Of a stretch of DNA of 64,000 nucleotides, positions 2,675 through 63,869 are shown one piece after another. The stretch's first letter is position 1; each line of letters begins with the position of its first letter. The notes under the pieces were generated by a model. The model did not search any database. It was not told where the DNA came from and was given only the letters and a program-made list of their open reading frames with translations. The stretch lies in the NCBI GenBank assembly GCA_963402885.1, contig OY727098.1, forward strand, positions 3,405,001 through 3,469,000, given 5' to 3'. The translations under genes were made by a program, and so were the position numbers. The stretch is from Antedon bifida. Its lineage: Eukaryota; Echinodermata; Crinoidea; Comatulida; Antedonidae.

Positions 2675-9423
<6,749 letters not shown>

Positions 9424-11178: not shown

Positions 11179-11625
11179 CTGGCTGTTTACTTTATCGTTT
11201 TGATTTAGCTTTTCGCTTTTTTTTTTTGTATCTCCATTGAGATCCAGCCACTGATACCCACAGCATTGTCATTTTTTTCAGTAATTTGCCTTTGGATTTA
11301 TATATCGTATTCAATATAGAAATATAGATAATGTTACTTACTGTACTGTTAAATATCCGTTTACACTTCTCGCAGACTTACAGATGATATGCGTATCCTG
11401 GGTGAAAACAGAAATGCTTTCGGTAGATCAAGACGCATGCGCACAAATGTATTGTGTATGTGAAAGGAACCGTGCCATCGCCAAGCTATCATGGGGCTAT
11501 CATAAATTTTATAAAAATCCAAAGGCAAATTACTGAAAAATGACAATGCTGTGGGTATCAGTGGCTGGATCTCAATGGAGATACAAAAAAAAAGCTAAAT
11601 CAAAACGATAAAGTAAAACAGCCAG
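11179..11625. mobile_element. Foldback/MITE-like element with 110-120 bp inverted arms (unit A)
   Basis: Left arm 11179-11300 (CTGGCTGTTTACTTTATCG ...) is closely repeated in inverse orientation at 11515-11625, around a unique 210-bp centre. No coding capacity was seen. Copies lie at 20945-21392 and 32491-32891, and a related solo arm at 46095-46222. Confidence 0.75.
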
Positions 11626-19090: not shown

Positions 19091-20944
19091 CGTTATTGAT
19101 ACTGGAATTTAACTAAATAGAAAAAAAGAAGAATAATAATGATGATTCAGAAATAAAAAAATGGAAATTAAAAATGGAAATATAACTCAATATATCGACT
19201 TTTAACATTAAAACAACATTTTTTCTAAAGATCTAGGTCTATCAAAGGACAGTACGGTACTTTTATTAAGGACATAATATTTATTTAATTTTTCTATTTA
19301 AAATCTCAAAAAGAGTGATGTTGTTACTGTTCTTATTTATCATGACGTCATTTGATTTCATCAAATTCATTTTGTTTTATGCAACAAAAAAGGTATGTTT
19401 ATCCAGGAAAGAGCGAAATTTCTCTCTTCCCTGGGTTTATCTATAATGTATTGTTGATTATTATCGGCCTAGTGTAATTAGGCTTTAATAGTAGACTACC
19501 ATACGGTACGGATCAATAATTATTTCTTAGACAATAGTCATCTTTGAACATGTAGATTTTGTTTTGAAAATTAATTATTCATGTGTATTAATGTATTAAT
19601 CGTATTAAGCAAATAGTAATCACCGCTTATAGAGAAGAGTGAAATTATTAATTTTACTCTTCCCTGATATACCATTGTTTTGTGCTGTGTTGTAGGTCTA
19701 GAATTGTAACAAGTCCATATACATAATGGCTACAGTCGCGTGCTCAAGTTAGTGTTTACCGACCAACCGACCGACCGACATAGTAAGCTGTAGAGTCGCG
19801 CTTGAAATTAAATGCAAGTAAAGTGTCATGCCAAAACCTTTCAGAATACAACTACTGTACCAACAATTCCACGACAAATTAAAAACAAATCTTAGAAGAA
19901 AAACTTTATGACCCTTTTAGATAAGTAACCATTCGAGTGGTGATTTGTGGTAGGATATTATACTCAGTATCACAGTCTTTCCTGATTTACCTGATTTGAA
20001 CAACTTCGAATCTTCCAGAGAATTTGTGTTAAGGATCATTCTGTGAAATGTGCAAAAGGTCACACTTGAACCATGGAGAAATTTACAGTATACCTCCATG
20101 GTTGAACTGATTTAAATTTAAACATGGTGTTCATGAAGAATACTTTATGTAATCATCTAGTGTGACCGATTCTTTTTCAAATTGTAATATTATAACAATA
20201 GCATGCCTAACAAAGTTAGTTTCAGTTCCGTTTTAATGAACGGTTAAAAACACTGAAAAACTAATTCCTTTGACATTGAATTTTTGTCTGATTATAGTGC
20301 CTTAGCGTACACGTCAGATTACTCAACCAATAATTATTGTTAACAAGTCTTCACAATAATGACCTTAAATTAACGCTAGCAAAATTGAATATAAAAATGT
20401 TCGCATAAATGTAGATATTTTATATATAAATGTTCGCATTGTAGAATACTGTAGTTATAGGTGTCAAGTCAAGCAAATACACCATTTAAAACTTTCCATT
20501 TGATTTCGAATGTTTCCACCAAAGTTGCATTTTTTTTAATAAATAACTTTCTATATTAGATTTTGATTTAATACAATTAATTAGGTCTTTCGTAGTATTC
20601 TTTAACTCTACGTCGATGTATTGCTTAAAGTAAAATGTGATTTAAAGCACTATAAAACGGATCAAAACCAAAGAAAATAATGTTGTCTCTGAAATTGGAA
20701 GTTAGCCTTACACTTGTTGATATGTTTTAATCCTAACCAAAATGTCGAAACTGGCTTACTTATTTACACAAATATGTTTTATTTTCCTCTTTCCCAATTA
20801 ACTTCAGGATTTTTTTTTTGTGATTTTGTGTAATTTAGAAATATTCCTCCCAATTGATATAGGCCTAGCTGTCTTTCTATTTCCTCCCATTAACAAGGCT
20901 TGACAAAATGTATACATATATATCGTATAGCTCTGCTAACTTTT

Positions 20945-21392
20945 CTGGCTGTTTACTTTATCGTTTTGATTTAGCTTTTCGCTTTTTTTTTTTGTATCTC
21001 CATTGAGATCCAGCCACTGATACCCACAGCATTGTCATTTTTTTCAGTAATTTGCCTTTGGATTTATATATCGTATTCAATATAGAAATATAGATAATGT
21101 TACTTACTGTACTGTTAAATATCCGTTTACACTTCTCGCAGACTTACAGATGATATGCGTATCCTGGGTGAAAACAGAAATGCTTTCGGTAGATCAAGAC
21201 GCATGCGCACAAATGTATTGTGTATGTGAAAGGAACCGTGCCATCGCCAAGCTATCATGGGGCTATCATAAATTTTATAAAAATCCAAAGGCAAATTACT
21301 GAAAAAATGACAATGCTGTGGGTATCAGTGGCTGGATCTCAATGGAGATACAAAAAAAAAGCTAAATCAAAACGATAAAGTAAAACAGCCAG
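20945..21392. mobile_element. Foldback/MITE-like element (unit B)
   Basis: Same element as 11179-11625, duplicated with the unit. Confidence 0.75.
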
Positions 21393-32490: not shown

Positions 32491-32891
32491 CTGGCTGTTT
32501 ACTTTATCGTTTTGATTATACCCACAGAATTGTCATTTTTTTCAGTAATTTGCCTTTGGATTTATATATCGTATTCAATATAGAAATATAGATAATGTTA
32601 CTTACTGTACTGTTAAATATCCGTTTACACTTCTCGCAGACTTACAGATGATATGCGTATCCTGGTTGAAAACAGAAATGCTTTCGGTAGATCAAGACGC
32701 ATGCGCACAAATGTATTGTGTATGTGAAAGGAACCGTGCCATCGCCAAGCTATCATGGGGCTATTATAAATTTTATAAAAATCCAAAGGCAAATTACTGA
32801 AAAAATGACAATGCTGTGGGTATCAGTGGCTGGATCTCAATGGAGATACAAAAAAAAAAGCTAAATCTAAACGATAAAGTAAAACAGCCAG
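32491..32891. mobile_element. Foldback/MITE-like element (unit C, left arm deleted in part)
   Basis: As in A and B, but about 50 bp is missing from the left arm (TTTTGATTATACCCACAG junction). Confidence 0.7.
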
Positions 32892-41417: not shown

Positions 41418-44400
41418 ATGAAATTGTTGGTAAGTATAACTAATTTATTCTTATTATCAATATTGTTTTTTTAATGGATTTAAGTTAAAAATGATGTTGC
41501 ATAATTCACGGTCAATGTAAACGATAAAGATTGTAAAACGCCGGGGAAAATGTAGGAAAATTTAGGCATACGCCGACCCTATATTAAATTGTTTTTGTTC
41601 TTCTGAATTTACGTCGGTTATTTTAAAAAGACTTTAGTTCCAGTAATTCACCATTTTTTTTATTTCGAAAGTTGTAGAAAACTTTAGGCTTACTTTTTAA
41701 GCTCTGAACTCGATTTAATGAGAAAATCGGGCTAATCGAACTCGAGGATTAAACAATACCTTTTGAAGAAAAGAAAATAACTAAATATTCCATCCTTATT
41801 AGAAACAGCATCGATATGTTACAATTATACTCTGCTTCAGTCCATCCTCATCTCATTTTATTTATTATCCAAGTTTTGATTGAACTGTTCCGTTCCTACT
41901 ATCCTGTCTTTTGATTTGTTTGGTTCTTGCCAAAGTAATCTGGAAAATATTTTCCCCACGCGTCTAAAAAGAAGCTATACACACAAGGTTGAAGAGAGTC
42001 CCATGACCTGTCAAGTTTATATATTTTATTTTTAATGTGTTATTTAAGAGGCCCCTTCACTTAAAAAATAGAATCCATCTATATGTTTAAACTCGGAGTT
42101 TTTAAGAATCCTATTTCAATTCATTTATTGTAATCTTGTGCGTCGAATTTATTGTTTTTTCTCTCTTTTTAACAAAACGAAAATTATTATTATTATTTAT
42201 AAGCTGTGTGTAATTGGTCTAGTGATATTTAGCCGTGATGTTTCTGGAGAGGCGGTTTCATTTTCCCTAAATGATGCTGCTCCCTCAGCAGCAGGAGGAT
42301 CTGCAATTATAGCGCCAAGATGCAGGTGAGTAGGCCTACACTAATATTATGACAACATACAGTTAGGTGACAGAAATTATTCCAATCGAACATAGGCTAC
42401 TGTATAAACAATTCTATACGACAGTAAAATTCTCATACATAATTATTAATATGTAGGTGAGTGAAATTATGTAAGGTGAGGGAAATATGATTATGATAGG
42501 ATGATAAGGATGTAGACCTACATCTGTGCTAACTGTCGAATACTTATGGAGGAACCTACATATCCATGGAATAATTAGACCTCTATTAATGGCGTCCGGT
42601 ACTTTTGCGTTTGGTGACGGTAATGATGATTATAATGAAAATAATAATTTGATTATTAACGTTTGATTTTATTACCCCTTCATAATTCTTTGTATACAAT
42701 TTGGCTGATAAGTAAAGCCTTTTCTTGCAAAAGCGGAGTTTAATCAAGTTTTGCAAACTAAATTTTGCTAATGTAAACATCATGTTTTCTAAAGTTTTAG
42801 TCGAAGTTTGTCAGCCACTGGCAGACTTTGGAAAACATTTCTTGACAAACTCGGATTTGCAAACAAACTCTGCCAGTGTAGGCTACTATCAACTGATTCA
42901 CTTACATTTTAAATTTTAGACTATCAACTACTGCAACGTTATCACAGAAGAGAATTGTCAACGACTTTGGATCAGTGTTGAAAGCTGGCGGTGAAGCTGT
43001 TGAAGATGTTGACGCAGATGATGACGATAGCGTCGTGCTTGCGTCAACATTTAACTCGCACCTTTCAGCTGCTGGTGTTGGATCTGTTAGCTTTGACAGG
43101 TATGGAAGTATTAGGATGTCATATAACATGACAGTACTATTATACTACTAAAACGAGTTTGCATTTCTACGCAAAAACGCGTTCTTTCCGTGCCACAAAT
43201 GTTCCAATTTGAAGGAAGACGTTTCACCGTTTGCCATATCGTTTAAGTTAATTCATCAAACGTGTTTATTCAAAGGCACATGGAAGATTGGCATACCGAA
43301 AACAATATGTTAAAGTGTTAAAACTTATTCAGTGGTCTATGCAGGAGTAAAAATTAATTTTATAATTTCTAAGAAACCATCAAAACGTTTAACAGGCCTA
43401 CATAATTTATATCTGAATATAGTTACTGTTCTAAACGACATCGTATACCAATGGACTGCCTGTATAGGCCTTGTTAGTAGTTATGCATGCGCGGGATTAA
43501 TTTCTTTTGAATTATGGTTTTCTAGCAAAATGCCAACAACAAATGTACAGTCGTCTTCTGGAGGGGGAGGAGGAGCCGGAGGAGTGGTAGGTGGTTCAGC
43601 AACAGACTACATTCCGGATTTCGCCCCTTATCCATATCCCGGTCCTATCTTCTCTGGTTATTGTCGATCCTTCCGAACCACAATCCAACCAACCTGGGCA
43701 ATTAACAGTCAACATCAATGGGTTCGAGTTTTCCAGGCTTACTATTTCAGACAGACATTCCCAGTTGTATATTGCACGTAAGTATTTGAGCTATTATGTA
43801 TTTATAACAAACATATTTCAAAGAATAAAACCGTATAAATAGTGATACAGTTCTACCAGTTTATATTATAATGTAACTTATGCTTTGGTTCGGTTAAGAA
43901 ATATTGTACCTTTTACGATATTGCTATCAATCATAATATTATCATTTTATGTCACTGGAGGGCAGCGCAAAGAGCCGAGAGAAAAAGAAAGCACACAACT
44001 GCTCCAAACATTTACCTTTTATCAAAAGCATTATTTATATATACCATGATGGTAGAACTATGTTTTTAGAATACATATATTATATAAAGAATTTCAAATT
44101 GCTTGACTCGTGTATATTTCGCTTTCAATCATTGGATTTTATTAATCCAATTCCAGGAATTCAAATATTTAATCTATAATTAGAGTTTATTTTTTAAATT
44201 TTATCTTTGTTCTAATGTTTTCATATTCTGTATTCTTAATTACGCAAGTAAACTAATGTTGTTTGTTTATGTTTATTAGATCAGCATATTGCAACAGTTT
44301 CTACGCCTATCCATTTGGACTCGACACACCCGGAACAGGCGGAGGAGCAGAGGGAGTAGGAGGACCTGTCGGAACCAGCTATTATCCTCAATATTACTTT

Positions 44401-44574
44401 CCATTTGGTCGCTGTTATGTTAAATACCGTTACTTTTATGCCCTTGTTGTAGCAGGGTGTGGAGGGGGTTACCCTTACTGGGGTGGCTTGAACCTTCAAG
44501 TTCAGTTAATTCGCCTACCAGGTAGTTGCAGCTGTAGAAACGACTTCATTTGGCCACCTATTTATAAAAAATAG
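41418..44574 (+). CDS. Secreted Spaetzle/neurotrophin-like cystine-knot protein (5 exons)
   Basis: Predicted secreted ligand precursor, 286 aa. Exons: 41418-41429, 42204-42325, 42920-43099, 43526-43777, 44280-44574, all GT/AG and phase-consistent. Exon 1 encodes only MKLL; with exon 2 it makes a signal peptide (MKLLLCVIGLVIFS). A prodomain with an acidic VEDVDADDDD run follows. The C-terminal domain (about 150-275) has seven cysteines at 151, 188, 193, 234, 249, 272 and 274. Motifs echo the Spaetzle domain: QPTWAINSQHQWVRV, QTFPVVYC, FGRCYVKYRYFYALVV and the end LPGSCSCR (compare the LPSCC.C ending of Spaetzle). Two Gly-rich inserts (117-128, 209-220) are unusual. A basic SQKR in the prodomain could be a cleavage site. 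Family assignment is inference from spacing, not an alignment. Convergent with the C3orf38 gene. Confidence 0.6.
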
Positions 44575-45381: not shown

Positions 45382-47075
45382 CTATTTATTATTTGTATGC
45401 CAATCAAGTGCTTCTAATGATTCTTGACCAAGTCTTGGAGTTTGTTTCACATCTTTTGATTGGACGAACAAATTAGAATACTTTATTTTCCAATTGTTTT
45501 GGAATGCAGGATCTCTAATTAGTCCAAAGTTCTGCTCAAATATTCCTAAACAATTTGACCCCTGATGCAAGGTACCACACACACCAACCATCATCAATCC
45601 ATGCTTGTTCATTTTACCTTTAGTTCCGAAGTTTTCTAAGTTTGGATTAAATATCAATAATTCATCCTTTGACAGGTTTAGTAAACGTTCCGCTACCTGA
45701 TTAGCATCTATGAACTCTTCCCTTCTATATTCATCAGACGTTTTGATTGTTAAAACAAGTTTACAGTCGTACCAGAAATGTTGAGGCCCCCACGGTTCTG
45801 ACTGAACTTGGCTGCTTTTCGGGTTATTTGAGTTTATCTGCTTGTAAAACCATGAAGCAAATTGTAATGCTAAGTTCTGTTCTTCTGGTACTTTTTCAGG
45901 TACTTTTTCAAGCTGAAAAAACTAATGCATTTAACTATTTAATTCCTGCTATTCCTTCTTGAAAATATTTTTTTTATAAATTAAAAATTAATTTTCTTTA
46001 TTTGTTCAGTGAAGTGTAAATTTATGTATTAATATACATATACAATATATATATTTAGGGCTAGTGTTGCCCCGAAAGCTCTGCAATTTATTTATGGCTG
46101 TTTTACTTTATTGTTTTGATTTTATAGCTTTTTGCTTATTTTATTTGTAACTTCATTGAGATCCAGCTACTGATACCAACAGAGTTGTCATTTTTTTAGT
46201 ATTTTGCCTTTTGATTTATATATGAATGCAGTATATATAAATAAATAATAATTTTCAAAAGCACAAGGGGCAGTATTAAAAGCAAAGCATACAGCCCTAG
46301 AAAAATAATAATTAAAAAAATAAGGATACAATATAAAATAGAGAGAAAAAATATTAAATTATCTAATAATCATAATTGATGATGATGCATTACAGTTAAT
46401 GATATCTATAATTTATGGTAAACAATTTTGAAAAGTTCACAAATAACATCATCTTGTGGAAAAACCAAATGTACACAAAACAAAATGAAAATTATACCTT
46501 TTCTGGATTGCTCGAGTTTGGAGAATGAAGAATCTTGTCAACCAGATCTGATTTACTAGCACTTCCAGGAAGCGGCACCTTCTTGTTTGCCAAATATTGA
46601 AAAAGACATGACCGACTTATTTTCTTGCGGCTAAGTAGCTCAGATGCGCTTTCAGTGTAGGTAAGTATTGCATCAATGGTTTCTGCAAATTTGATTTTAA
46701 TGAAATTTAAAACATATGTGACGTGGCCAGCTTATTATAGTATAGGCCTAGTATATGTAATTTCAGACAAGTCAGACGTTTAGTGAATTAGCCTAATATG
46801 ATAAACTAAGAGCAAAGCAGCTAAGTTTGTAAGTCTATAAGCCTAGGCTCTTCTCTAGGCCTATTTGTCCGACCTGACCTGAATTAAACTTCCGATCGAA
46901 CTGCCTCAGAACCGAGTTGTTTGGGGAATTTCCCGCCCGGTACTGCTGCCTTACCTTCCACTGAGTGAGTTTTAATAAGCTTGCTTGTGATAGTATCCTT
47001 TAACGATATCAATTCTTTCTCTGGCAAAAACTTTAACAAATGTCTGAATTCCTCTTTTTCCTCTTCATTAAGCAT
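45382..47075 (-). CDS. C3orf38: C3orf38 homologue, complete (3 exons)
   Basis: Poorly characterised conserved metazoan protein. Exons 47075-46955, 46682-46498, 45912-45382 total 837 bp, 278 aa, with phases 1 and 0 at the junctions. Exon 1 begins [20 protein letters not shown]. Exon 2 has AILTYTESASELLSRKK, matching the AILAYSQSAEELLRRRK type of segment in the human protein. Exon 3 has the family core EPWGPQHFWYDCKL, FNPNLENFGTKGK, GLMMVGVCGTLHQGSNCLG and FEQNFGLIRDP. It is somewhat shorter than the human protein (about 329 aa from memory). It is the parent of the N-terminal halves of the two chimeras to its right. Confidence 0.9.
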
Positions 47076-49032: not shown

Positions 49033-49608
49033 GACTAGAGGGTACTCCGAGAGTACAAACCTCCGCCTACTGTAAAATTCCCCTACATAAAATGTCCCCG
49101 GAAAATATATACATTTTTTTTAATTAGTTCTAAATGTAAATAGACTAACTGCACACTACAACGTTGTGGATGAGAGTTTGGTGTAATGGTTATGTATCCA
49201 GCCTCTCACAGTTGAGATCGCAGGTTCCCGCTGAGATATTTTTTTTTTATTATTTTTTTATTTCTTTTTTTTTGGGGACCTTGATCTTTGACCCTGACCC
49301 TTCAAAATTTAACCACAATTATATGATGAGTCATTGATCATTGTGGCTAAGTTTGGTGAGAATCGGATAAAAACTGTGGTCTCTAGGCAGTAAAATAGTG
49401 TTTTGTTAGTTGTGACCTTGACCTCTGACCTTTTCCCCTCAAATTCGAACTCGTCCGAGCTTTTGAGGCATAGATCATTGTGTCCAAATTTGGTGAGAAT
49501 CGGATAAAAACTGTGGCCTCCAGGCTGTTCACAGACAGACACACACACGCACACACACACAAACATACAGGGGTGAAAACATAACCTCCTTGGCGGAGGT
49601 AATTATGG
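49033..49608. mobile_element. Composite repeat with tRNA-like segment, inserted in the ubiquilin 3' flank copy
   Basis: Interrupts the duplicated ubiquilin 3' flank (AATTATATAGAGGA). It starts ACTCCGAGAGTACAAACCTCCGCC and ends CCTTGGCGGAGGTAA. It holds a tRNA-like stretch (GTGTAATGGTTATGTATCC, then a box B-like GCAGGTTCCCGCTG) at about 49165-49235. It then has a poly-T run and two GTGAGAATCGGATAAAAACT repeats ending in a CA microsatellite. Related to inverted sequence at about 12890-13100 in the triplicated units. Confidence 0.55.
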
Positions 49609-50275
49609 TTCAGGGACGATTCGGCCCTGAGACGATTCAATAGTATGTAAATGAGATATAAAGATTCGGCAATACCGTACGTAAATTATTAATTCAATAC
49701 TGTATAACGATTCGACTATGTAAATGAGATATAAAGATTCGGCAATACCGTACGTAAATTATTAATGCAATACTGTATGAAGATTCGATAGTATGTAAAT
49801 GAGATATAAAGATTCGGCAATACCGTACGTAAATTATTAATGCAATACTGTATAACGATTCAATAGTATGTAAATGAGATATAAAGATTCGGCATATATT
49901 AATATATAATATTAAAAATAGAATATAAGATTCGATAGCATGTAAGTTAATATTAAAATACATATAAAATATACATTGATTTAACGGCCGGCAAACTTAT
50001 TATACAACTTGTTATAGAAATATAAAGAAGAGCTGTAACTCAACTCGCTATAGGCCATGTCGTTGACAACAACAACCCAAGATTAAAGCGCACACGGAGT
50101 TCCATACAAATGACGATATTAAATTGGCGGCCGCTTTGGTTGGCGGCCGCTTCGACCATACTGCGCCGAATCGTCCCGGGCCGAATCGTCCCGGGCCGAA
50201 TAGTCCCGGGCCGAATCGTCCCAGGGCCGAATCGTCCCGGGCCGAATCGTCTCAGGGCCGAATCGTCCCGTTACC
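49609..50275. mobile_element. Mutator-like MITE with 10-bp target duplication
   Basis: Flanked by GTAATTATGG at 49599-49608 and 50276-50285. Near the ends, GGGACGATTCGGCCCTGAGACGATTC (49613-49638) is matched by its exact inverse at 50245-50270. Internal 79-bp repeats (about 49640-49900) and six to seven 17-bp CCGGGCCGAATCGTCC-type repeats (50162-50270). No coding capacity. TSD length and structure suggest a Mutator-type origin. It lies just downstream of the chimera 1 stop codon. Confidence 0.75.
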
Positions 50276-50292
50276 GTAATTATGGGTAACAG

Positions 50293-52010
50293 TTAGCTGG
50301 CGCCACCTATCAGTCTTGCAAGGGCGGGTTGTATAAGACCATCTGTAGCTGTGAGTGCTCTTATGTTTGCTTCTCTATCTACAAAACCTATAGATGCTAA
50401 CTGTTCTAGTTGAGTCCGAAATTTAACCTCTGGAGCCTGAAAAGAGAGATTAATTGAACTTTAGTGTTTTTGCATCATGACTATATTCTGAAAATATTTG
50501 TTTTTTTCTAATTACTTTTCTGTATCATGTACAAGGGGCAGTATTATAAGCAAAAGATTTAAGCGTACAGCCCTAGAAAAAATAATAATTTTCAAAAGCA
50601 TGTACAAGGGGCAGTATTAAAAGCAAAGCATACAGCCCTAGAAAAAATAATTTAAAAAATAGGGATACAATATAAATATAAATAGAGAAAGATAAAATTA
50701 TCTAATAATCATAATCTAATTGATGATGATGATGATACTGATAATGATGATGATGCATTAGGCCTACAGTTAATGATATATATAATTATGGTAAACAATT
50801 TTGAAAAGTACACAAATATCATCATCTTGTGTGAAAAACAAAATGTACACAAAAGAAAATAAAAATTATACCACTGCTGAAGGTAGAGAATGAACAAACT
50901 TGTCAACCAGATCTGATTTACTAGCATTTCCAGGAATCGAAACCTTCTTGTTTGCCAAATATTGGAAAAGGCATGACCGACTTATTTTCTTGCGGCTAAG
51001 TAGCTCAGATGCGCTTTCAGTGTGGTTAAGAATGCTTTCAATTGTTTCTGCAAATTAGATTTTAGTGAAATTTAAAACAAATGCTTATTATAGTATAGTA
51101 TATGTAATTTCAGACAGGTCAGAAGTTGGATAAATTAGTCTATTTGGTAAACTAAGAGCAAGACAGCTAGCTAAGTTTTTAAGTCTATGCCCCTTCTAAG
51201 CATAGTTGTTGGACTTGACCTGGATGGAACCATGGAGGTAGGAGAGAGCTTAAATGCATGTAAGTAAGCAGTGGGTACTGCACCAACAGGATTTTAATTG
51301 TTTGTAACTGTGTGGAGTAGCTTTGCATCAGGGTGGTGCTGAGTAATTGGTCAGATGTTTTGCCCTACTCTGACGTAATTTGTACTACTAAGTACATTGA
51401 GAATATAATACGCAAGTAATTCTCGAAAACAAACCCTGTCAATATGTTTCTAGTCTTGAAACCAGACACTTTTAAGCAAAGTTTCCGGCGGCGCTAAGCC
51501 TGTGTGGTGTGAGCCTAACATTAAACATTATGTTTCCTGCCACACCTTTTCTCCAAATAAAAATTAATGCTGATTTGCTTGCGAAAGCTAAGTCAGCTAC
51601 ATACCAGTCATTGGTGACATTGTTCATGTTCTGGTACTTTGAAGAACAGTTTGCTATTATTAGTATTTGGTATGTTGAATTTTGTCTATGACTATCTTCA
51701 ACATTTCACAGAACACATTTTTTATTTTGAACATTTGGAAACTCAATTTCAAAAGTCAAATGTTGGTAGTTATTCTATATGGAGTTCATAAATTAATTTT
51801 ATGAGCATCATGGCGGACTACAGTAGGCCTACTACTACAAGATTTATCGAGTTGTTTCGGGAATTTCCCGTCCGGTACTACTGCCTTACCTTCCAATGAG
51901 TGAGTTTTAATAAGCTTGCTTGTTATAGTATCTTTTAACAATATCAATTCTTTCTCTGGCAAATACCTTAACAAACGTCTGAATTCCTCTTTTTCCTCTT
52001 CATTAAGCAT
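50293..52010 (-). CDS. Chimeric gene 1: C3orf38 N-terminus fused to a ubiquilin UBA domain
   Basis: Exons 52010-51890 (duplicate of C3orf38 exon 1), 51047-50872 (duplicate of exon 2) and 50436-50293 (duplicate of the last ubiquilin exon). Splice sites are kept (G|GTAAGG, GCAG|AAAC, GTG|GTATAA, TTTTCAG|GCTCC). Junction phases agree (1, then 0), giving 441 bp, 146 aa, with no stop. The N-part keeps [20 protein letters not shown] and ASELLSRKKISRSCLFQYLA. The UBA part reads [19 protein letters not shown] and ends RLIGGAS. The ubiquitin-contact MGF loop is IGF, and GGDVNAAIE has become DGLIQPALA. The WGPQHFW core of C3orf38 is absent. Transcription is inferred from the duplicated C3orf38 5' flank. 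It could be an untranscribed relic, but both frames and splice sites survive. Confidence 0.6.
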
Positions 52011-54765
52011 ATTTTACAGTCTAAGATAGACACTATATTTGTTTACAGGAAAATTAAAATACAAAGCCTATCTCGGCCGCGACTCTTTGTTATGTCATAG
52101 AGTAAAGGTTATGTTTAATGTTATGATGCTCTAACTCTAATGAAAAGTACGCCCTCTATATTGGTATGAAATCTTCCTGATAAGGGGGACTAAGTGGGAG
52201 TGTGGGAAGATTGCTGAAAGATTCCATTCCGTATTTTGATTTCTTCTTAGTTTCTTCTAAAGTACATACTTTTTATTTAAAGGTCATCAAACAACTGCAA
52301 TTTAAAGCAGAAATAGTAAGGTTTTTTGTTAACTGCAAAAATCGCCTATTCAAAGTCTGATTTTATTAGGCCTCATCTTCATTTTTCATGTTTTTGGGGA
52401 ACATCTTTAAAGTATGTTTATAAAATTTAGTCCCCATGGTAGCTTAAGTTCAGTTTTTAAACTTTGCTATTTTAGGTCAACATCCTTTAATAAATGTCTT
52501 GCTTTGATGATTACTTTTCTCATTCCAAAATAAATTATTTAACATTCGATAAACTGTTTATGTTTATAACATTCTTCTAGGCTGGATTCTTAATTGTATT
52601 TACGAGACGAAAACATAGTTACCAACCTCAGAGATTTGAAATGCGGGAGAGAATATTAATTGTAGTCACCACAGCCCCTCCCCTCCCCCTCATGGGGCAT
52701 GTGACGAAGCGAATTTGATTTGACGAATTGATTTAAATACAGATAATTGATTGATTGATTTTGTCAGAATTACTTATAATATATAAACGATTGGATCTTG
52801 TTAATTAAAATACAATAGCCGCTATCACAGTCCGATCAAAGATTCCTCCGCGTAGGAATGTCATAAAAGACTCTTGTTATAATAATAAAGACATAAGTTA
52901 CTTTTTCTCTAGATTTCATTATACATCATGCGTATAATCTATACACTAAGAAGTAAAATTGAACAAATACTACGGATATATAAAAAATTATTTCGTTTTG
53001 TTTCCCAAGGTGAGACTCGATACCTTGAATGCTATAGACGCGAGCACATACCACCGAGAAATACATAACTAAAGTTGTAGAAAGATTCCTCCGTGTATTT
53101 ACTATGCAGTAACCACTTTGGTGCAGATAAATTATTACATACCGCAATGAATCGTAATTTTTTACTATGATGAAATCTTTAACAATTTTAAAAAGTGATG
53201 CATGCACTGTCAAAGTATATACTTTTAACTTTTTTTAAAGAAGAAGGTTAATGTTAAGTGTTTTTATTGTCTTTCGCGGGAACAACCAACTTTTATTATT
53301 TCCACTGTTTTTCTTCTTTTTTTTTCATTACTACTTACAAATAAGTTGACACCATAAATAAGAATGTGTTAAAATGGTAAAAGGTCTAATTACTTAATTT
53401 ATAGAAATTGTATTCTAAGTATCACAATTAGTAGCACACACAAATACATATATACAGTACCTATGATTTTAAACAATGCATTAAAATATTGTTTTATACA
53501 TAAAAAAAAATTGGCTTATTAACGATACAAATGCTAACTATAAAAAATAAAACTTATATTAATTGGAATACAATAGATCAAAACAAATAAAGTAAAGAAA
53601 AAATCATTCAAATAAGTTTAAGTAAAAAATTAAGAAGTTTTTCTTTTATACGAGACCATTTGATCTCGACTTTAGTTAAATGACATGAATATTCATTACT
53701 AATTTGATTTTAACTTCAAGAAAGAGTAACTTCCAAATTAATTTTACATCATGTTTGCGTTTATCAATTTTATTTTTTTAAATACATTTTATAAATACAG
53801 AAAGTAAATAACGACAATAGTTCATTTACGTTCCGACAATAATGTTTAAAAACGTAATCTCTTGGATTTCAGGAAAACATTTTTTGATTAATTAGTTGAA
53901 TCGTATACATACTGGTTGCACAACAATACATAAATGTACGGGAATGTTAAGTTTATTATTTCGGCCCAAGAAAATGTCATAGTTTTTTTGATTGTCGAAA
54001 TAATTTAATCAACTTTTTTCTCTTATAAGCCTACATTTTAAGAAAATGAAATGCAAAATAGTTACCGAGCATTCTGACATTCTAGCATATTTTCACCATT
54101 GTTAACTTACACGTTATATGCACTACGCACGTAATTGTATTGCCATGTGATGAAATATGACATGAAATTTATGAGTACCAAATCTGGTTTAGTTATGATA
54201 CATGCTTGTGAGGATATGATTACAAACGTGATTTATATATATATAATATATAGGTATTTATTCATAAAAAAAACACATAAAATGTACAAACAGAAGGCAG
54301 CCAACGGCTGAAAAATTCTGTAAACAACGTACAAAGTAAAAATTTAAAAGACTCTAACAACAATAAAATATATACATACAATATAAAAGTACACAGTAAA
54401 TCAGATCATTAAAAAGCCGTTAAAATTCTTAAAATGCTAAAAGACCCAGATAAACCAAAGCATGCGGTAATCACTAATTCGTTATTATTATTATTAATGT
54501 TATAAACCTACAAAGTTTTAGTTTTAGAAGCTTCATTCATTCTATCAATAATGTTAGGGATGGTAGAGCGTTTCCAACGATTAGTTTTACACAAGGGGGC
54601 ATCCAACAAATTAAAATTTCTCAAATTTCGAATCAATACAATGAATTGCATCTAATATTTAAAGTAAAGTCAAAAAAAAATATTACAAGCAACAACTTTG
54701 TAACATAGATAATCTATTTTTACAAAATTTACCGAAACGATAATTATATAGAGGATTAGTAACAG
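52011..54765. repeat. Duplicated C3orf38 5' flank behind chimera 1, plus unique and LINE-like sequence
   Basis: 52.1-53.2 kb copies the parental 5' flank. 53.2-54.1 kb is AT-rich with nothing recognised. About 54240-54640 resembles the antisense 3' end of a LINE (TTATTCATAAAAAAAACACA ... GGCAGCCAACGGCTG) without visible coding. 54640-54754 is the ubiquilin 3' flank copy. Confidence 0.6.
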
Positions 54766-56296
54766 TTATCTGGCACCACCTATCAGTCTTTCAGTGGCGG
54801 CATTTACATCACCACCTGTAGCTGTGAGTGCTCTTATGTTTGCTTCCCTATCTACAAAACCCATAGTTCGAAATTGAATCTGAAAAGAGAGAGTAATTTA
54901 ACTTTAGTTTTTTTGCATCATGACTACATTCTGAAAATATTTGTTTTTCTAAATTAATTAATTACTTTTCTGTCGCATGTACAAGATGCAGTGTCATAAG
55001 CATACAGCCCTAGAAAAAATAATTTAAAAAATAAGGATACAATATAAATATAAATAGAGAAAAAAGATAAAATTATCTATAATCACAATCTAATTGATGA
55101 TGATGATGATGATATCTATAATTATGGTAAACAATTTTAAAAAGTACACAAATATCATATTCTTGTGTGAAACACAAATATACACAAGAAAGTAAAAATT
55201 ATACCATTGCTTTAAATAGATGAAGAATCTTGTCAACCAGATCTTGTTTACTAGCATGTCCAGAAATCGACACCTTCTCGTTTGCCAAATATTGGAAAAG
55301 GCAGTCCCGACTTATTTTCTTGCGGTTAAGTAGCTCAGATTTGTTTTCAGTGTGGTTCAGTATTACATCAATGGTTTCTGCAAATTTTATTTTTGTGAAA
55401 TTTAAAACATTTGTGATGTGGCCAGTTTATTATAGTATAGTATATGTAATTTCAGACAGGTCAGAAGTTAGATGAATAGTCTATTTGTTGGTAAACTAAG
55501 AGCAAGGCTATGTTTGTATGCCCCTTCTAAGCATAGTTGCTGGACTTGGACCTGGATGGAACTATAGACGTAGGAGAGAGCTTGAATGTATGTAAGTAAG
55601 CAGCGGGTACTGCACCAACAGGATTTTAATTGTTTGTAACTGTGTGGAGTAGCTTTGCATCAGGGTGCTGAGTAATTGGTCAGATGTTTTGCCCTACTCT
55701 GACGTAATTACTACTAAGTACATTGAGAATATAATACGCAAGTAATTCTCGAAAACAAACCCTGTCAATATGTTTCTAGTCTTGAAAGTTTCCGGCGGCG
55801 CTAAGCCTGTGTGGTGTGAGCCTAACATTAAACATTATGTTTCCTGCCACACCTTTTCTCCAAATAAAAATTAATGCTGATTTGCTTGCGAAAACTAAGT
55901 CAGCTACATACCAGTCATTGGTGACATTGTTCATGTTTGCTATTATTAGTATTTGGTATGTTGAATTTTGTCTATGACTATCTTCAACATTTCACAGAAC
56001 ACATTTTTTATTTTAAACATTTGGAAACTCAATTTCAAAAGTCAAATGTTGGTAGTTATTCTATATGGAGTTCATAAATTAATTTTATGAGCATCATGGC
56101 GGACTACAGTAGGCCTACTACTACAAGATTTATCGAGTTGTTTCGGGAATTTCCCGTCCGGTACTACTGCCTTACCTTCCAATGAGTGAGTTTTAATAAG
56201 CTTGCTTGTTATAGTATCTTTTAACAATATCAATTCTTTCTCTGGCAAATACCTTAACAAACGTCTGAATTCCTCTTTTTCCTCTTCATTAAGCAT
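54766..56296 (-). CDS. Chimeric gene 2: C3orf38 N-terminus fused to a shortened ubiquilin UBA
   Basis: Exons 56296-56176, 55377-55205 and 54879-54766 total 408 bp, 135 aa, and all junctions are in phase. Exon 1 encodes the same peptide as in chimera 1. Exon 2 has diverged ([31 protein letters not shown]) and lost 3 bp. The UBA exon has lost 30 bp, removing ten residues of helix 1, but keeps [19 protein letters not shown] and [10 protein letters not shown] before a stop. All length changes are multiples of three. Introns match chimera 1, including an insert of several hundred bp in intron 1 that C3orf38 lacks. The shortened UBA may not fold; expression is unknown. Confidence 0.55.
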
Positions 56297-58173
56297 ATTT
56301 TACAGTCTAAGATAGACACTATATTTGTTTACAGGAAAATTAAAATACAAAGCCTATCTCGGCCGCGCCTCTTTGTTGTACACCCTCTATATTGGTATGA
56401 AATCTTCCTGATAAGGAAGTGTGGGAAGATTGCTGAAAGATCCCGTATTTTGATAGCTTCTTCTAAAGCACATACTTTTTATTTAAAGGTCATAAAACAA
56501 CTGCAATTTAAAGCAGAAATAGTAAGGTTTTTTGTTAACTGCAAAAATCGCCTATTCAAAGTCTGATTTTATTAGGCCTAATCTTCATTTTTCATGATTT
56601 TGTGGAGACACATCTTTAAAGTATGTATATAAAATTTAGTCCCCATGGTAGCTTAAGTTCAGTTTTTAAACTTTGCTATTTTAGGTCAACATCCTTTAAT
56701 AAATGTCTTGTTTTTATGATTACTTTTCTCATTATTTAACATTAGATAAACTTGTTGTCACTAAAATAAAAAGTAGGTTTTTGTATGTTGTTTATTATTT
56801 TTAAAATACAAGAGCTGTACATGCTTATTATATTCATTTTTTTTTTGCTCCACGATAAAACAAAGTCATCAATGTGTTCTTCAATAAACTACAAGTAAAC
56901 CTGTTTTTCTAATATTGTATTTTTTTTATTTTATTTTAGAGTATGTAGGCGAAATTCAATGATTTGTGTTGGTAATTTATATGCAATATCAAATATACAT
57001 TGCAACAATTAACGGTATAACCTTAATATTTAATATTGTAATTAGCATATTGTTTACGCTATCAATATTGTGTGTATTACAATATACAAAGTACTTTTTG
57101 TGATAAAACATTTAATCAGGGTAGAATAATTGTACTGTATTTATTTAAATTCAAAGATTATTTTAAAGCCAAGAAAAGCAATAGTCTTATTATACTTTTT
57201 GATTAGGTAAAGAGTTGTTCAATAAATACACAACAAAAAAAAGACAAATACACGACCTGTCACCATGAATAAAAAATGTGCACATAGGGGGTTGGGAAAT
57301 CATCAATATTAAAGCTTTGTTCCCAATATCGACGCAACGCAAGGACAAAACGCAACGATTTTACCAATCACAAGCGATGGATTATTCCGACAGTAGCTTG
57401 TCATTGGTCAATTTGCTTGTTGTGCGTACGTCCTTGCATTGCGTCTCTAGTGGGAACCACGCATTGCTGTGAAACAAGGAATTCTTAAAAGATTCACATA
57501 TGTGTGGCCTTGAGAGTTGTCTACTGTACGAAAACGGGAAAAAAGAATGTCAACAATTTACAGTGAGTGCGGCCTAAGTAGGTAGAACTGTGATGCAAAT
57601 TTTAGGATAGTACACTATAACTTTTAACATCAAAAATAACTGCACTTCTGTATATTTGAATAGCTATTTTTCATGCTATACAAATAAATATGAATTCATT
57701 TACTTTTATAAAAATTACATATATAGTTATATATAATTATTTATTATTTGTGATGAAGTTAATACTAAAAACAGAGGAATCTTTAATACGAATGATAAAC
57801 ATTTTTACCGCTAAATTATTGGTCACATAAACCCACTGTTTCTGATCTGGCGGAAATAGTAATCATTTTTTTTAGAAAAATGATTAATTAATGCTATCTT
57901 CTTTTTCAGTAGCGAATATAAAATATTCATAATAAAATATTAAACCTAATTATTTAATCCATGTAATCACTTTATATCCCCCTTTGCTTAAAATCAGTAT
58001 GTATAGATAAAAACTATACCATTACCAATCTATACAGTGATCAGTGAATTGTACCTAATATTTAAAGTCAAGCCAAAAAACGATATTAAATTGTGTACAA
58101 GCAACAACTTTGTAACATACATAATCTATTTTTACACCAAAACGATAATTATATAGAGGATTATTGGTAACAG
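56297..58173. other. Flank of chimera 2 up to ubiquilin
   Basis: 56.37-57.0 kb is the third copy of the C3orf38 5' flank. 57.0-58.0 kb is AT-rich with one MITE (57308-57470). 58045-58158 is the genuine ubiquilin 3' flank. Confidence 0.6.
57308..57470. mobile_element. Short MITE
   Basis: Inverted ends: TTGTTCCCAATATCGACGCA followed by ACGCAAGGAC on the left; GTCCTTGCATTGCGTC, then TAGTGGGAACCA, on the right. About 160 bp, non-coding. Confidence 0.6.
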
Positions 58174-61100
58174 TTAGCTGGCGCCACCTATCAGTCTTTC
58201 AATGGCGGCATTTACATCACCACCTGTAGCTGTGAGTGCTCTTATGTTTGCTTCCCTATCTACAAAACCCATAGTTGCTAACTGTTCTAGTTGCGCCCGA
58301 AATTGAACCTCTGGAGCCTGAAAAGAGAGATTAATTGAACTTTAGTGTTTTTGCATCATGACTACATTTGTTAGTAGAAAACACCCCCACCACATATTAA
58401 ATATTTTCTATATATATATATGTCTGTCCTAAAACTGCTGCACAGTTCCCTAACAATACTTACTGGAAGAAATTGCAAGAGAGTTGGCCTATTTCCTAAC
58501 TATTACTGCACCTAACCCAAAAACTAAGGACATCGATAGATTTTGAAACTCTGGGCTCCAGATTCATAAGGTGAAGTCTAACCATTCAACCACAGAACTG
58601 GCTTGCTAAAAAACTGAGTTATCCCATAACTAAAGTCATGCATTATTCATTCATTAACACATTAGAAAAAAAAAACTATTCCTGCTCTTACCTGAACTGT
58701 ATTTGCACCTGTAGATAATGACTGCATCATTGTTGACATCATTTGAGACCACTGATCTGCATTGGGAGCTGAACCTGTAACGGTGGGGGCTGTTGATGGT
58801 GTGCTACTTGTAGTTGTACTTGTTGTTGATACATTTGCTGTACTAAGTGTTGGCATTGTCCCAGTCAATCTAACCAACCAATTAAACAAAATACTGTACA
58901 TTATATAAACTTTAAACAAGACTGGGTGATGTTACACTAGATATTAGTGGGTGTGTCTGCTTTATTTAAATATGCTAATTGGTATTTGCTGTACTAAGTG
59001 TTGGCATTGTCCCAGTCAATCTAACCAACCAATTAAACAAAATACTGTACATTATATAAACTTTAAACAAGACTGGGTGATGTTACACTAGATATTAGTG
59101 GGTGTGTCTGCTTTATTTTAATATGCCAATTGGTATTTGTTTATTTGTTATTATTTATTTATACTAGGCGACCTCTTCAGTCCAGAGGGCCAGCGGTTGT
59201 AATGTACTAGTATACCGTGGTAACCCCTACTCGTCTCAAAAGATGTACTAGGTTCTTTAAAAGTGCACATGAGCTAGATCTTGTGGCTAGCATTTAGTAT
59301 TCTTACTTTAGGGTATAATCACTTTATTAGTTATGATTCATTTTTAAAGGCAAAATGACTGTATATAAATGTACTGTATATAATATTTGTTTAAAATGAT
59401 AATGAAAGAGACGAGAAGTCTGTTGTTACCATTTTCAAATACCTGTACTTACCCAGGTAAGAGGCCTGGTGCTTCTTGTTGTAGCTGTTGCATTCCCTGT
59501 TGTATCTGCATGATTGCCTGCACTGCTCTAGGATTTGTCATAGCTGACTGCATCTCAGGGTTTTGCATCTTTTAAAAAGTAATAAAACATCATATCATAC
59601 TATAGTGCATGGTTCTTAAAAATGTTCCATAAGGATTTTAAATCATGCAATATTTATTAACATATTAAATTATCATTTAAACATGTAATGTACATAAATT
59701 TGGTATTTTTTAAATCCCTGTATTGCCTTTCTCAATTCTGTTCTACATGCATTCAAATACTCAATAATCAACCATGCTGTTATAATCGTTCAGACATAGA
59801 CATATTTTACTCTTTCTAACTAGTACTGCTTGATGAAAATATAAGTACCTGCTGTAGGAATGTTGGCATCATCTGCTGCATCTGTTCTTGAAGTTGAGAA
59901 TTTCCAGCAAACATTGGATTAGATGCTAATACCTAGTGTAGTAGAAAGAAATATCTTTTGATTTGAAATTACTGGTAATTTGAACTTTGATCCTTACTTA
60001 TCTTTAGTAAATCGTCTAGGAATGTATGTACTTCACTATACTGAAGACACTCTAATTAAGAAGACAAGGAGTAATACATGTTCTAACACTATGGCCAACC
60101 TCTATTTAGGGGAAAATCTTGTTGGATCCCGAAGCCGTCCCCTTGATAGAGGTGCTATGAATTGGCTAGTGCTAACCTGTGAAGCAAGCTGAGGGTTTTG
60201 GCTCATATTTTGCATCATGCTTCTCATGTATGGAGCCTGCATCATGTTCTGCATCAGCTGTGGATTGGCCGACATCTGCTGCATCATACTTTGCATTCCA
60301 GGACTGTTAAAGATACCTGTAGACAAGGAAATAAATACAGCTGTTAAAAAGTGAATCAGATTTATTAGCCTATGGATCACAGGTGTTAAATGATGAATCA
60401 CAGGTGTAAACTGATGAATCACAGTTATTAGCCTATGGATGACAAGTGTTATCTGGTGGATCACATGTGTTAACTGATGGATCACAGGTGTTAACTGATG
60501 GATCACAGCTGTTAACTGATGGATCACAGGTGTTAACTGATGAATCACAGGTGTTAGCCTATGGATGACAAGTGCTATCTGGTAGATTACAGGTGTTAAC
60601 TGATGAATCACAGGTGTTAACTGATGGATCACAGCTGTTAACTGATGGATCACAGGTGTTAACCTATGGATGACAAGTGCTATCTGGTGGATTACAGGTG
60701 TTAACTGATGGATCACAGCTGTTAACTGATGGATCACAGGTGTTAACTGATGAATCACAGGTGTTAAATGATGAATCACAGGTGTTAGCCTATGGATGAC
60801 AAGTGCTATCTGGTAGATTACAGGTGTTAACTGATGAATCACAGGTGTTAACTGATGGATCACAGCTGTTAACTGATGGATCACAGGTGTTAACCTATGG
60901 ATGACAGGTGTTAACTGGTGGATCACAGTTGTTAACTGGTGGATCACAGTTGTTAACTGGTGGATCACATTTGGTAGCCTATGGATGACAAGTGCGATCT
61001 GATGGGATCACAGGTGTTAACTGGTGGATCACAGTTGCTAACTGATGGATCACAGTTGCTAACTGATGGATCACAGTTGCTAACTGATGGATCACAGTTG

Positions 61101-63869
61101 TTAGCCTATGGATGACAAGGCATACAATCTGATGGATCACAGGTGTTAACTGGTGGATCACAGGTGTTAACTGGTGGATCACAGGTGTTAACTAATGGAT
61201 CACAGGTGTTAACTAATGGATCACAGGTGTTAACTGATGGATGACAAGACATACTATCTGGTGGATCACAGGTGTTAACATGTGGTTAACAGGTGTTAAC
61301 ACATGAATCAAAGGCATTAACAGGTGAAACTCAAGTGCTACCACATGTGGATATCAAATATGTAATCTCAGATGTTATTACCTGGTCCAGGTTGAACCCC
61401 ACTTAAATTAGGTGTTGTGGATGGTGTGGATGTTGTCGTTGACGGTGTACTTGATGCAGTAGTAGTAGTTGTAGCAGTAGATGGTGTTGACCTTGCACTG
61501 GGTGTACCCCATGGATTAGGTAGAGGTTCTGTGTTTTCCCTACCCTGTTGTGAGGCACTGCCACTAGATGAAGCTTTAAAAAAAACACAAGTTTATTATT
61601 ATTTACGTAATGATGTTTTATTAACTTATTATCTACTATCATACCACACAAATAAAATATATTACATAAACTTTCAAATTTGTGACAAAATGACATTAAT
61701 GTTATTAATAGTGTTCATTGTTACAGTGTACATTATGGTGTACATCGGTGACCATTCACCAAACGCGTCTCTGTAGGCACAGGAATAAAATAAAACTTTG
61801 CAAAAATAACTGTTACTTACTATTACCACTAAGAGCTGCAAATGGGTTGCCTCCAAGCTGTTCTTGAGCTGCATTCATCATTGGTTCTTGTATATCTGTA
61901 TACATTCTCCGTAGGGCATTGTAGCCTCCTGGAATACTCTACAATCAAACAAATAAACAGTTGAATATGGGTGATATCCTTTCAAAATATAGCAAAATTT
62001 ATTTATTGATTTCGCCATGCAAACCTTCAAACAATATAAAATTTATTTAGATGTAAGTTTTAATGAATCATTGGGTTGTCATATAACTGTATTATTATTT
62101 CATGAGCAAAATATGTGATTTAATGTTAAGATTAATTTAATAGGATTTCATAAATGATCATGTGACATACTTCTAGATTGCTTAGAGCTCTATCTTGGCT
62201 TCTCATCATCTCCTGCATCATAGATGGATTACGTGCTAGCTCCATGGTTTGACGCAGTAACTCTGGGTTATTTAACATGTGGGATAATTCAGGATTTCTC
62301 TGAAAAACAAAATCATAGTTATGATTGTTAATTTGCACAACAGATTGTGTCCAAACATGGTAGTGATATACCCAAATATTGTTGTAGTTTACGCATATTA
62401 TGTAATGATGCATTATTGTGTTTACGCGTATCAGATTAAGAACGTACGCTTATGTTTTAGTCGTGTGCGTTGTATTCAAACAAGTCTAAATAGCATTCTC
62501 ATAGTTGTTATGAATCAAGCATGGTAGTAAAGTACCAACTAGTCTGTTGCTAACCTGTTGCTAACCTGTTGTTAACCAGTATATGTAATGAGTTGATTGG
62601 CCCAAGGATAAGTTAACTAGATTCATATTGTAGATATATATTATATATAACATATTTTAATTAATTATTTTAACGTATCTTTGCATTATTAGTGAATGTA
62701 TTGTAAGTTATTAGAATGTTATATGTCTGTTTGTTTCAGGTTTTGAATTGTATTTCTTATCGTAGTAATTATATTATCTGTTTCATTTGCTGAGATTTTC
62801 ATGTGAATAAAGCATTTCTTTACAATACAAAAAGCCAAAAAACTCATTTGTTTTCACATGTCACATTCTCCCACAGTAGTGATATGACATCATCATGTCC
62901 ATATATGGGCACATCACATTTTTTTGTCACATAAAGTTTGATAGTGTAGACAGAGCTTTACTAACTTCCATCAATTGTTGCATTTGAGGATTACTCATCA
63001 ACATTTGTCTTAACATCTCTGGATTCTGCATCATATTCTGTACTAATGGATTCTCCATAACTTGTTGCAACATCTCTGGATTATTCAACAACTAAAAAAA
63101 AACACAAACAAAAACATTCAAAGATATGGTATGGTAACGTTTTCACATTAAACGCCATGATAGCGCTAGAACCACTCACATCGTCTAGAGAATCCGTAGA
63201 GATCTCATTCACCTTAAACCCTGCAACACCAGAGTTTGCAATAAAAAAAGCTTAAATACCCGTATTCTGCTATGGATGATGAATACAATACAACTAGAGT
63301 GAGTAAGTGGAACCGTAATTACGTAGCCATAACATAGACAAGGGTTCGAGGCTCACTCGCTCCATGGTTCTGGTGGTAGAACAAGTCTTCTGGGATAGGA
63401 CTATAAACTGTAGGTCCAGTATACACATCTGGCTCATGTTAACTTTAAAGAACCCAGTACATCTTTTGAGACGAGTAGGGGTTACCCCGGTGTACTAGTT
63501 CACACACAGCCACTGTCACAAACTCATCATATATATATATATATTCTTTAAGGCATCTGTAATTGGCGATATCGCTCTTGGATGTATGTGAAATAAAATA
63601 AAAAATAAAAGGGGAACACATCTAGCACACTTTAAAGAACAGTAGTACAATCTGTCATTTAGTGTTGATTTAATATTTACCTGGCTTTGCATTTGTTGTT
63701 GCATTTCCATAAAATTAGCTGATCCTAGGCCCATTCCTCCAAGGCCACCGAGTCCACCCAGCCCACTTCCAAATGGGTTTTGTTGTGCTTGAATAGGAGG
63801 TGGGGCTGCAGTGGTGGTTGATGATGATTGAGAAGATTGTTGTGCATGTTGAGCTGCTTGTTCTTGAGC
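58174..63869 (-). CDS. UBQLN: Ubiquilin, 3' ten exons (5' part outside the window)
   Basis: Shuttle factor that binds polyubiquitin through its C-terminal UBA and the proteasome through an N-terminal UBL. Exons seen: 63869-63681, 63091-62966, 62299-62171, 61938-61821, 61573-61382, 60316-60177, 59932-59849, 59568-59453, 58869-58692, 58317-58174. All are in phase, 1416 bp, 471 aa plus stop. STI1-type segments include [39 protein letters not shown] and [38 protein letters not shown] and [16 protein letters not shown] are family hallmarks. A Ser/Thr-rich linker precedes the UBA ([18 protein letters not shown], then RLIGGAS). The UBL and about the first 120-150 residues lie beyond 64000. The start is therefore absent. 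The last exon is the source of the UBA in both chimeras. Confidence 0.95.
58827..59130. repeat. 157-bp tandem duplication including a ubiquilin exon edge
   Basis: The block TTTGCTGTACTAAGTGTTGG ... TGTCTGCTTTATTT occurs twice, starting at about 58827 and 58984. The second copy repeats the acceptor and about 40 bp of the exon that starts at 58869, without the rest of the exon. Confidence 0.9.
59161..59290. repeat. Dispersed repeat, inverse copy of 63430-63520
   Basis: ACCCCTACTCGTCTCAAAAG and the following TGTACTAGGTTCTTTAAA are the inverse of TTTAAAGAACCCAGTACATC and CTTTTGAGACGAGTAGGGGT at 63445-63485. An old dispersed element in two ubiquilin introns. Confidence 0.7.
60350..61330. repeat. 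21-bp minisatellite in a ubiquilin intron
   Basis: About 45 units of GTGTTAACTGATGGATCACAG and variants, some with GGTGTTAGCCTATGGATGAC. Unit length is a multiple of three. The minus strand reads VIHQLTP-type heptads without a stop for over 200 codons, continuous and in frame with the ubiquilin exon at 60316-60177. Confidence 0.95.
62896..62961. mobile_element. MITE right half next to a ubiquilin splice donor
   Basis: ATATATGGGCACATCACATT ... TTTGATAGTGTAGACAGAGCTTTA matches the right arm of the 40131-40281 MITE. It ends at the splice donor of the 63091-62966 exon (GAA|GTTAG-TAAAGCTC), so the last donor bases may come from the insertion. Confidence 0.6.

Follow-up and report, generated by a model that had tools for sequence, protein, structure and literature searches.

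In a window of 64,000 nucleotides from Antedon bifida (contig OY727098.1; the window is the whole stretch of DNA analysed, and all coordinates given here are positions in it), two chimeric genes, hereafter chimeras A and B, lie between ubiquilin and C3orf38, and their birth by tandem duplication across these two neighbours is well supported. Each chimera has three exons, duplicates of C3orf38 exons 1 and 2 being followed by a duplicate of the last ubiquilin exon, which carries the UBA domain. All chimera and parent models are on the minus strand, along which ubiquilin ends first, followed by chimera A at 56296-54766, then by chimera B at 52010-50293 and finally by intact C3orf38 at 47075-45382. 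The mitochondrial code agrees with an echinoderm source without proving it: COX1 on the mitochondrial contig C27 scores higher when ATA is read as Ile (490.3 bits with table 4, 490.0 with table 9) than when it is read as Met (483.5 bits with table 5, 486.2 with table 13), and TGA is Trp. The general look of the sequence would also fit an echinoderm. The locus is a known kind of tandem-duplication chimera with a new pair of parents. As to its present status, we consider it probable that the two genes are a young chimeric pair of tandem-duplication origin, whose UBA part has been freed of the constraint it was once under and whose evolution may be close to neutral, this being the likeliest of the states weighed below. 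The locus shows, in a clean natural case, that tandem duplication of neighbouring genes can yield an in-frame hybrid in one step, and the parents alongside serve as controls. If the chimeras are expressed, they would make it possible to ask what becomes of a ubiquitin-binding domain, formerly under constraint, when it is freed from its parent protein; if they are silent, they are an ordinary by-product of duplication.

Origin of the hybrid between two intact parents

Both parents flank the chimeras intact, C3orf38 being complete and ubiquilin being judged from its part inside the window. C3orf38, of 278 amino acids (exons 47075-46955, 46682-46498 and 45912-45382), was identified by its match to Pfam DUF4518, with 274.7 bits over profile positions 1-270 of 271; a search of the PDB with this protein gave 0 matches. 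The last ubiquilin exon (58174..58317) scores 34.1 bits with Pfam UBA and has ubiquilin-1 as its best PDB match (E 4.9e-17), and an exon upstream of it matches Pfam UBQLN1 with 65 bits. Chimera A encodes 135 amino acids in exons at 56176..56296, 55205..55377 (placed by gene model and alignment) and 54766..54879. Chimera B encodes 146 amino acids, in exons that the gene model places at 51890..52010, 50872..51047 and 50293..50436. Exon 1 is the same in both chimeras and differs from that of C3orf38 at 7 of 121 bases. These coordinates and lengths reproduce the two three-exon models proposed in a first-pass annotation of this DNA, and its description of the splice junctions was borne out on the gene models: GT donors and AG acceptors are in place throughout, the novel junction is in phase 0 on both sides, and the frames are open up to the normal UBA stop. 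Intron 1 is in phase 1. Both gene models were checked for a disabling stop, a frameshift or the loss of a splice site, and none was found.

The duplication pattern is far beyond chance. By blastn, the A and B blocks align with 82.5% identity over 1829 columns, ubiquilin and B with 91.9% over 209 columns, and ubiquilin and A with 80.8% over 334 columns; the second and third units have matching intergenic blocks as well. A duplicated C3orf38 5' flank, likewise predicted in the first-pass annotation, was recovered by alignment; counted over aligned bases, its identity to the C3orf38 flank is 86% in A and 82% in B, with gaps of 145 and 107 bases, respectively, excluded. Genome DNA searches, in which only the best candidates are scored and all counts of places are therefore lower bounds, placed C3orf38 exon 1, exon 2 (with a query 6 bases short) and the UBA exon at at least three places each, all of the listed ones lying in this window; the searches with exon 1 and the UBA exon add two and one short flank pieces, respectively, likewise in the window. 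A genome search with DUF4518 gave at least four places, namely C3orf38 exon 3 and the three copies of exon 2.

Ubiquilin and C3orf38 are same-strand neighbours in head-to-tail arrangement, and the homology of the duplicated ubiquilin segment starts at 58368, within the last intron of that gene. The novel junction between C3orf38 intron 2 and the ubiquilin last intron falls in A at approximately 54925..54935, with ubiquilin homology from about 54930, and the same junction falls in B at approximately 50482..50492, with homology from about 50487. Its sequence is common to A and B except for one base, which shows one founding event, followed by a second duplication, and not two independent fusions. 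The founding event is best explained as a tandem segmental duplication that broke inside the last intron of ubiquilin and inside intron 2 of C3orf38, the adjacent downstream gene on the same strand. The copied unit comprised the ubiquilin UBA exon, the intergenic region and C3orf38 exons 1-2, both parents staying whole; with these breakpoints the head of the downstream gene necessarily precedes the tail of the upstream gene. The founder product must have read whole ubiquilin, then C3orf38 exons 1-2 joined to the ubiquilin last exon, then whole C3orf38. Both interrupted introns being in phase 0, the hybrid needs no further change to stay in frame. The founder unit was subsequently duplicated a second time, producing A and B with their common junction. 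The description of the chimeras as a new gene family is overstated, since one founder and one duplicate are a mechanical by-product of tandem duplication.

After the second duplication, sequence would have been exchanged between the copies over exon 1 and intron 1, as suggested by a tract of near-identity at 55613..56332. This tract, of 720 bases, takes in exon 1 and the greater part of intron 1, and the two copies have only 2 mismatches and 4 indels in it; another 22 mismatches follow in about 224 bases; divergence is about 3% in the 5' flank above the tract and about 10% below it. Gene conversion or a recent exchange is the probable cause. Since the tract spans exon 1, the identity of A and B in this exon is no evidence of purifying selection there. 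The divergence of A and B in exon 2 (16.4%) was also considered as a sign of selection, but it is mostly explained by the ending of the tract in intron 1: a divergence of about 10% is likewise found in intron 2 and at the end of intron 1. Compared with non-coding sequence, a lineage-specific excess in exon 2 is absent for A (14/159 against 32/402 in introns, nominal P = 0.73) and non-significant for B (nominal P = 0.086). An assembly artefact from stacked haplotypes is disfavoured by the difference of about 10% between A and B that sets in towards the end of intron 1, by that of about 3% in their 5' flanks, and by their distinct intergenic sequence and 3' context.

Formation of chimeras by this route has been described in Drosophila. 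The closest precedent is Sdic of D. melanogaster (sw / AnxB10), in which, as reported, a segmental duplication spanned two neighbouring genes that fused via a set of deletions, and the chimera expanded in tandem between them (PMC7475035). Sdic is reported to have an impact on sperm competition. The crinoid locus resembles Sdic in the segmental duplication of two neighbours, the chimera, the tandem copies and the parents flanking the array. It differs in that deletions made the Sdic fusion, whereas here the fusion comes directly from intron breakpoints and is present in two copies known from DNA alone. In D. yakuba, tandem duplications crossing gene boundaries are reported to join the 5' end of one gene to the 3' end of a second one; the 15 lines studied yielded 76 chimeric genes, and 24 of the 76 gained expression over at least half a segment (PMC5460883). 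The type is the same as here, the downstream gene supplying the 5' part and the upstream gene the 3' part, on the same strand and in tandem; the D. yakuba cases, however, come from a population sample with RNA-seq, and A and B are diverged copies represented by genomic sequence. In the literature searched, no paper naming both C3orf38 and ubiquilin was found, and none naming DUF4518. For ubiquilin together with tandem-duplication chimeric genes, the paper found concerned fish antifreeze chimeras and, separately, ubqln4; for echinoderm tandem-duplication chimeric genes, the entries as listed included nothing relevant.

State of the C3orf38 and UBA parts

The N-terminal part of the chimeras is little eroded, as the DUF4518 scores of the first 93 residues (A 85.3 bits, B 87.6 bits) are near that of the parent (93.6 bits). 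A and B share with C3orf38 the first 97 residues, which cover profile positions 1-96 only; the rest of the domain, two thirds of it, is missing, and neither chimera holds the full domain of 271 positions.

Exon 3 of both chimeras has its source in the ubiquilin UBA exon and keeps the same acceptor and stop codon position; its sequence differs from the parent in each copy. In A the exon is 30 bases shorter, which is best explained by two in-frame deletions, one of 9 and one of 21 bases; 10 residues are gone, including most of helix 1, and the MGF and RLIGG motifs are retained. In B, 11 of 47 residues are changed; RLIGG is retained, MGF has become IGF, and loop 2 and the start of helix 3 are mostly rewritten. 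With the exon alone, the Pfam UBA score is 34.1 bits for the parent, 27.2 for A (from profile position 11) and 16.2 for B, against a cut-off of 22.4; with the whole protein, A reaches 23.6 bits, above the gathering cut-off of 22.4 but from profile position 11 only, and B falls below it with 13.2 bits. A genome scan for the UBA family listed at least 11 places, among which the ubiquilin exon is present and neither A nor B is. AlphaFold2 models, each predicted from a single sequence with no native exon folded alongside, gave for the A exon one helix at 11-34 (predicted local distance difference test score, pLDDT, 76.9; predicted template modelling score, pTM, 0.36) and for the B exon three helices at low confidence (pLDDT 68.6, pTM 0.31); a Foldseek search of the predicted B exon against the PDB returned 0 matches. 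These models lend weak support to the erosion of the UBA part.

The first-pass annotation had held that the chimeras pair the C3orf38 N-terminus with a ubiquitin-binding fold. By the alignments and profile scores such a fold is not supported, A being without most of UBA helix 1 and B lying below the Pfam UBA cut-off and showing changes in the MGF loop and at the start of helix 3. Transcription from the duplicated C3orf38 5' flank, if it takes place, would give short proteins made of the first third of C3orf38 and a degraded UBA tail. Any effect of such proteins would more likely be exerted via the C3orf38 N-terminus, for instance by competition with full-length C3orf38, than through ubiquitin binding.

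Constraint, selection and competing explanations

A comparison of non-synonymous with synonymous substitution rates (dN/dS) between chimeras and parents had been suggested along with the original models, and amino-acid constraint was not seen in it. Pairwise dN/dS values involving the chimeras, calculated by the Nei-Gojobori method, range from about 0.5 to 2.3. The lower value applies to exon 1 against C3orf38, to exon 2 of B against C3orf38 and to the UBA exon of A against ubiquilin; the higher one applies to the UBA exon of B against ubiquilin (dN 0.135, dS 0.058), where 13 non-synonymous and 2 synonymous changes separate copy and parent. Branch tests gave no departure from neutral for the B UBA exon (P = 0.17), A exon 2 (P = 0.27) or the A UBA exon (P = 0.86), and none for the pooled chimera branches, with 8.75 synonymous to 30.25 non-synonymous changes (P = 0.34). 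Over the 103 shared UBA positions, lineage-specific changes number 0 in ubiquilin, 3 in A and 12 in B. No rate excess over non-coding sequence was detected in the A UBA exon (3/103 against 9/160 in flanks, nominal P = 0.38) or in the parent exon (nominal P = 0.28). These counts suggest relaxed constraint on the UBA part of the chimeras as the likeliest condition, the parent exon being without lineage-specific change.

Three observations weigh against a near-neutral pair and together hint at selection on a protein. The B UBA exon has diverged more rapidly than the sequence on either side of it (12/103 against 3/160), with a nominal P = 0.0016 in one of five tests. In a neutral simulation of 20,000 trials for each copy, the frame stays open in 1.1% (A) and 1.2% (B) of cases, and in 2.8% for A when exon 1 is left unchanged. 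Moreover, all four inferred coding length differences are multiples of 3. The simulation, whose rates were those of the non-coding A-B comparison (30 transitions, 29 transversions and 21 indels, of which 11 have a length divisible by 3), is rough, for it uses a stand-in ancestor, some of the non-coding indels lie in simple repeats, the copies are not independent and the locus was chosen for its open frames. The open frames weakly favour coding constraint. Frame-preserving indels, which were considered as strong coding evidence, are weakened in that role by the 11 of 21 non-coding A-B indels that are also multiples of 3.

The faster change of the B exon could be taken to mean that positive selection acts on the chimeras as young, functional genes, with the frame kept and the B UBA exon above all rewritten for a new partner. 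Apart from that exon and its 13 to 2 changes, the simulated probability that the frame stays open, about 0.01 for each copy, speaks for it, as do two coarser comparisons: a direct one of B with ubiquilin (15/144 coding against 7/163, P = 0.046) and one of A with B using hand-carried counts (46/282 coding against 54/541 adjacent non-coding, P = 0.0097). The ratio of non-synonymous to synonymous changes, however, is by itself not above neutral in the tests given above. Besides, 9 of the 15 base changes in the B UBA exon fall inside 25 bases (clustering P = 0.005), and the excess shrinks to P = 0.20 when this patch is taken as one event and to P = 0.074 when changes no more than 3 bases apart are merged. 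A exon 2 is no faster than introns and the A UBA exon no faster than its flanks, and with several tests run the P values are nominal. We regard positive selection as unlikely. A templated copy as the origin of the B patch was considered and set aside, as no source was seen within the window, where a look-up of the 10- and 12-base words of the patch found one 10-mer twice in all and no 12-mer above once. The broader idea of adaptive young chimeras, which keep the C3orf38 N-terminal segment while the dismantled UBA exon becomes a new C-terminal tail, appears to us slightly less credible still. Were it true, a new protein surface made from a deeply conserved domain would be traceable here between unaltered flanking parents.

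The duplicates might instead serve the parents, exons 1-2 of A and B acting as alternative first exons of C3orf38, or the UBA copies as alternative last exons of ubiquilin. All junctions would allow it, as the exon 2 donors of C3orf38, A and B and the acceptors of C3orf38 exon 3 and of the UBA exons are in phase 0, and the ubiquilin donor at about 58692 is also in phase 0 by eye; but nearer exons would have to be skipped and the UBA duplicates are poor replacements. We regard this use as improbable. Unexpressed, unprocessed pseudogenes that are still open by chance would be consistent with the neutral non-synonymous to synonymous ratios, with the decay of the UBA part and with the insertion past the B stop, which displaced the 3' untranslated region. 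Neither copy, however, has gained a stop or a frameshift or lost a GT or AG, and their 5' flanks still keep the identity to the C3orf38 flank reported above; this explanation seems to us just as improbable as a service to the parents.

3' ends and neighbouring repeats

The insertion directly past the B stop codon, of about 1.2 kb (49040..50278), is rich in repeats: two arrays, of 15-base and 75-base units, are joined in it by a dispersed repeat some 565 bases long. Past the stop, AATAAA or ATTAAA first occurs at +216 for ubiquilin, at +504 for A and at +1031 for B. The dispersed repeat (49040-49606) had at least 44 matches in a genome search that scored the best 40 of 1693 candidates, these being the repeat itself, one other in the window and 42 elsewhere, which are 88-95% identical. 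A different repeat, at 46077-46249 in C3orf38 intron 2, is common to 11163-11332 and 20929-21098 and partly to 32518-32596; blastn within the window listed no match to it in intron 2 of A or B, and hence it was probably inserted after the duplication.

Within ubiquilin, a 151-base tandem duplication at 58833-59139, with copies 98.7% identical, lies near or overlaps the putative start of the penultimate exon, and an apparent intron holds a minisatellite of about 45 copies of 21-base units (60372-61321) that feeds an open reading frame (ORF) of 288 amino acids at 60102-60968. On the plus strand, 43332-44574 contains two ORFs, the first matching Pfam Spaetzle with 18.7 bits, below the cut-off of 27, and the second having no Pfam match; they possibly represent a small secreted cystine-knot-like gene. 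Farther away, long simple-sequence arrays at 4012-4878 and 5386-6606 give rise to large repetitive ORFs.
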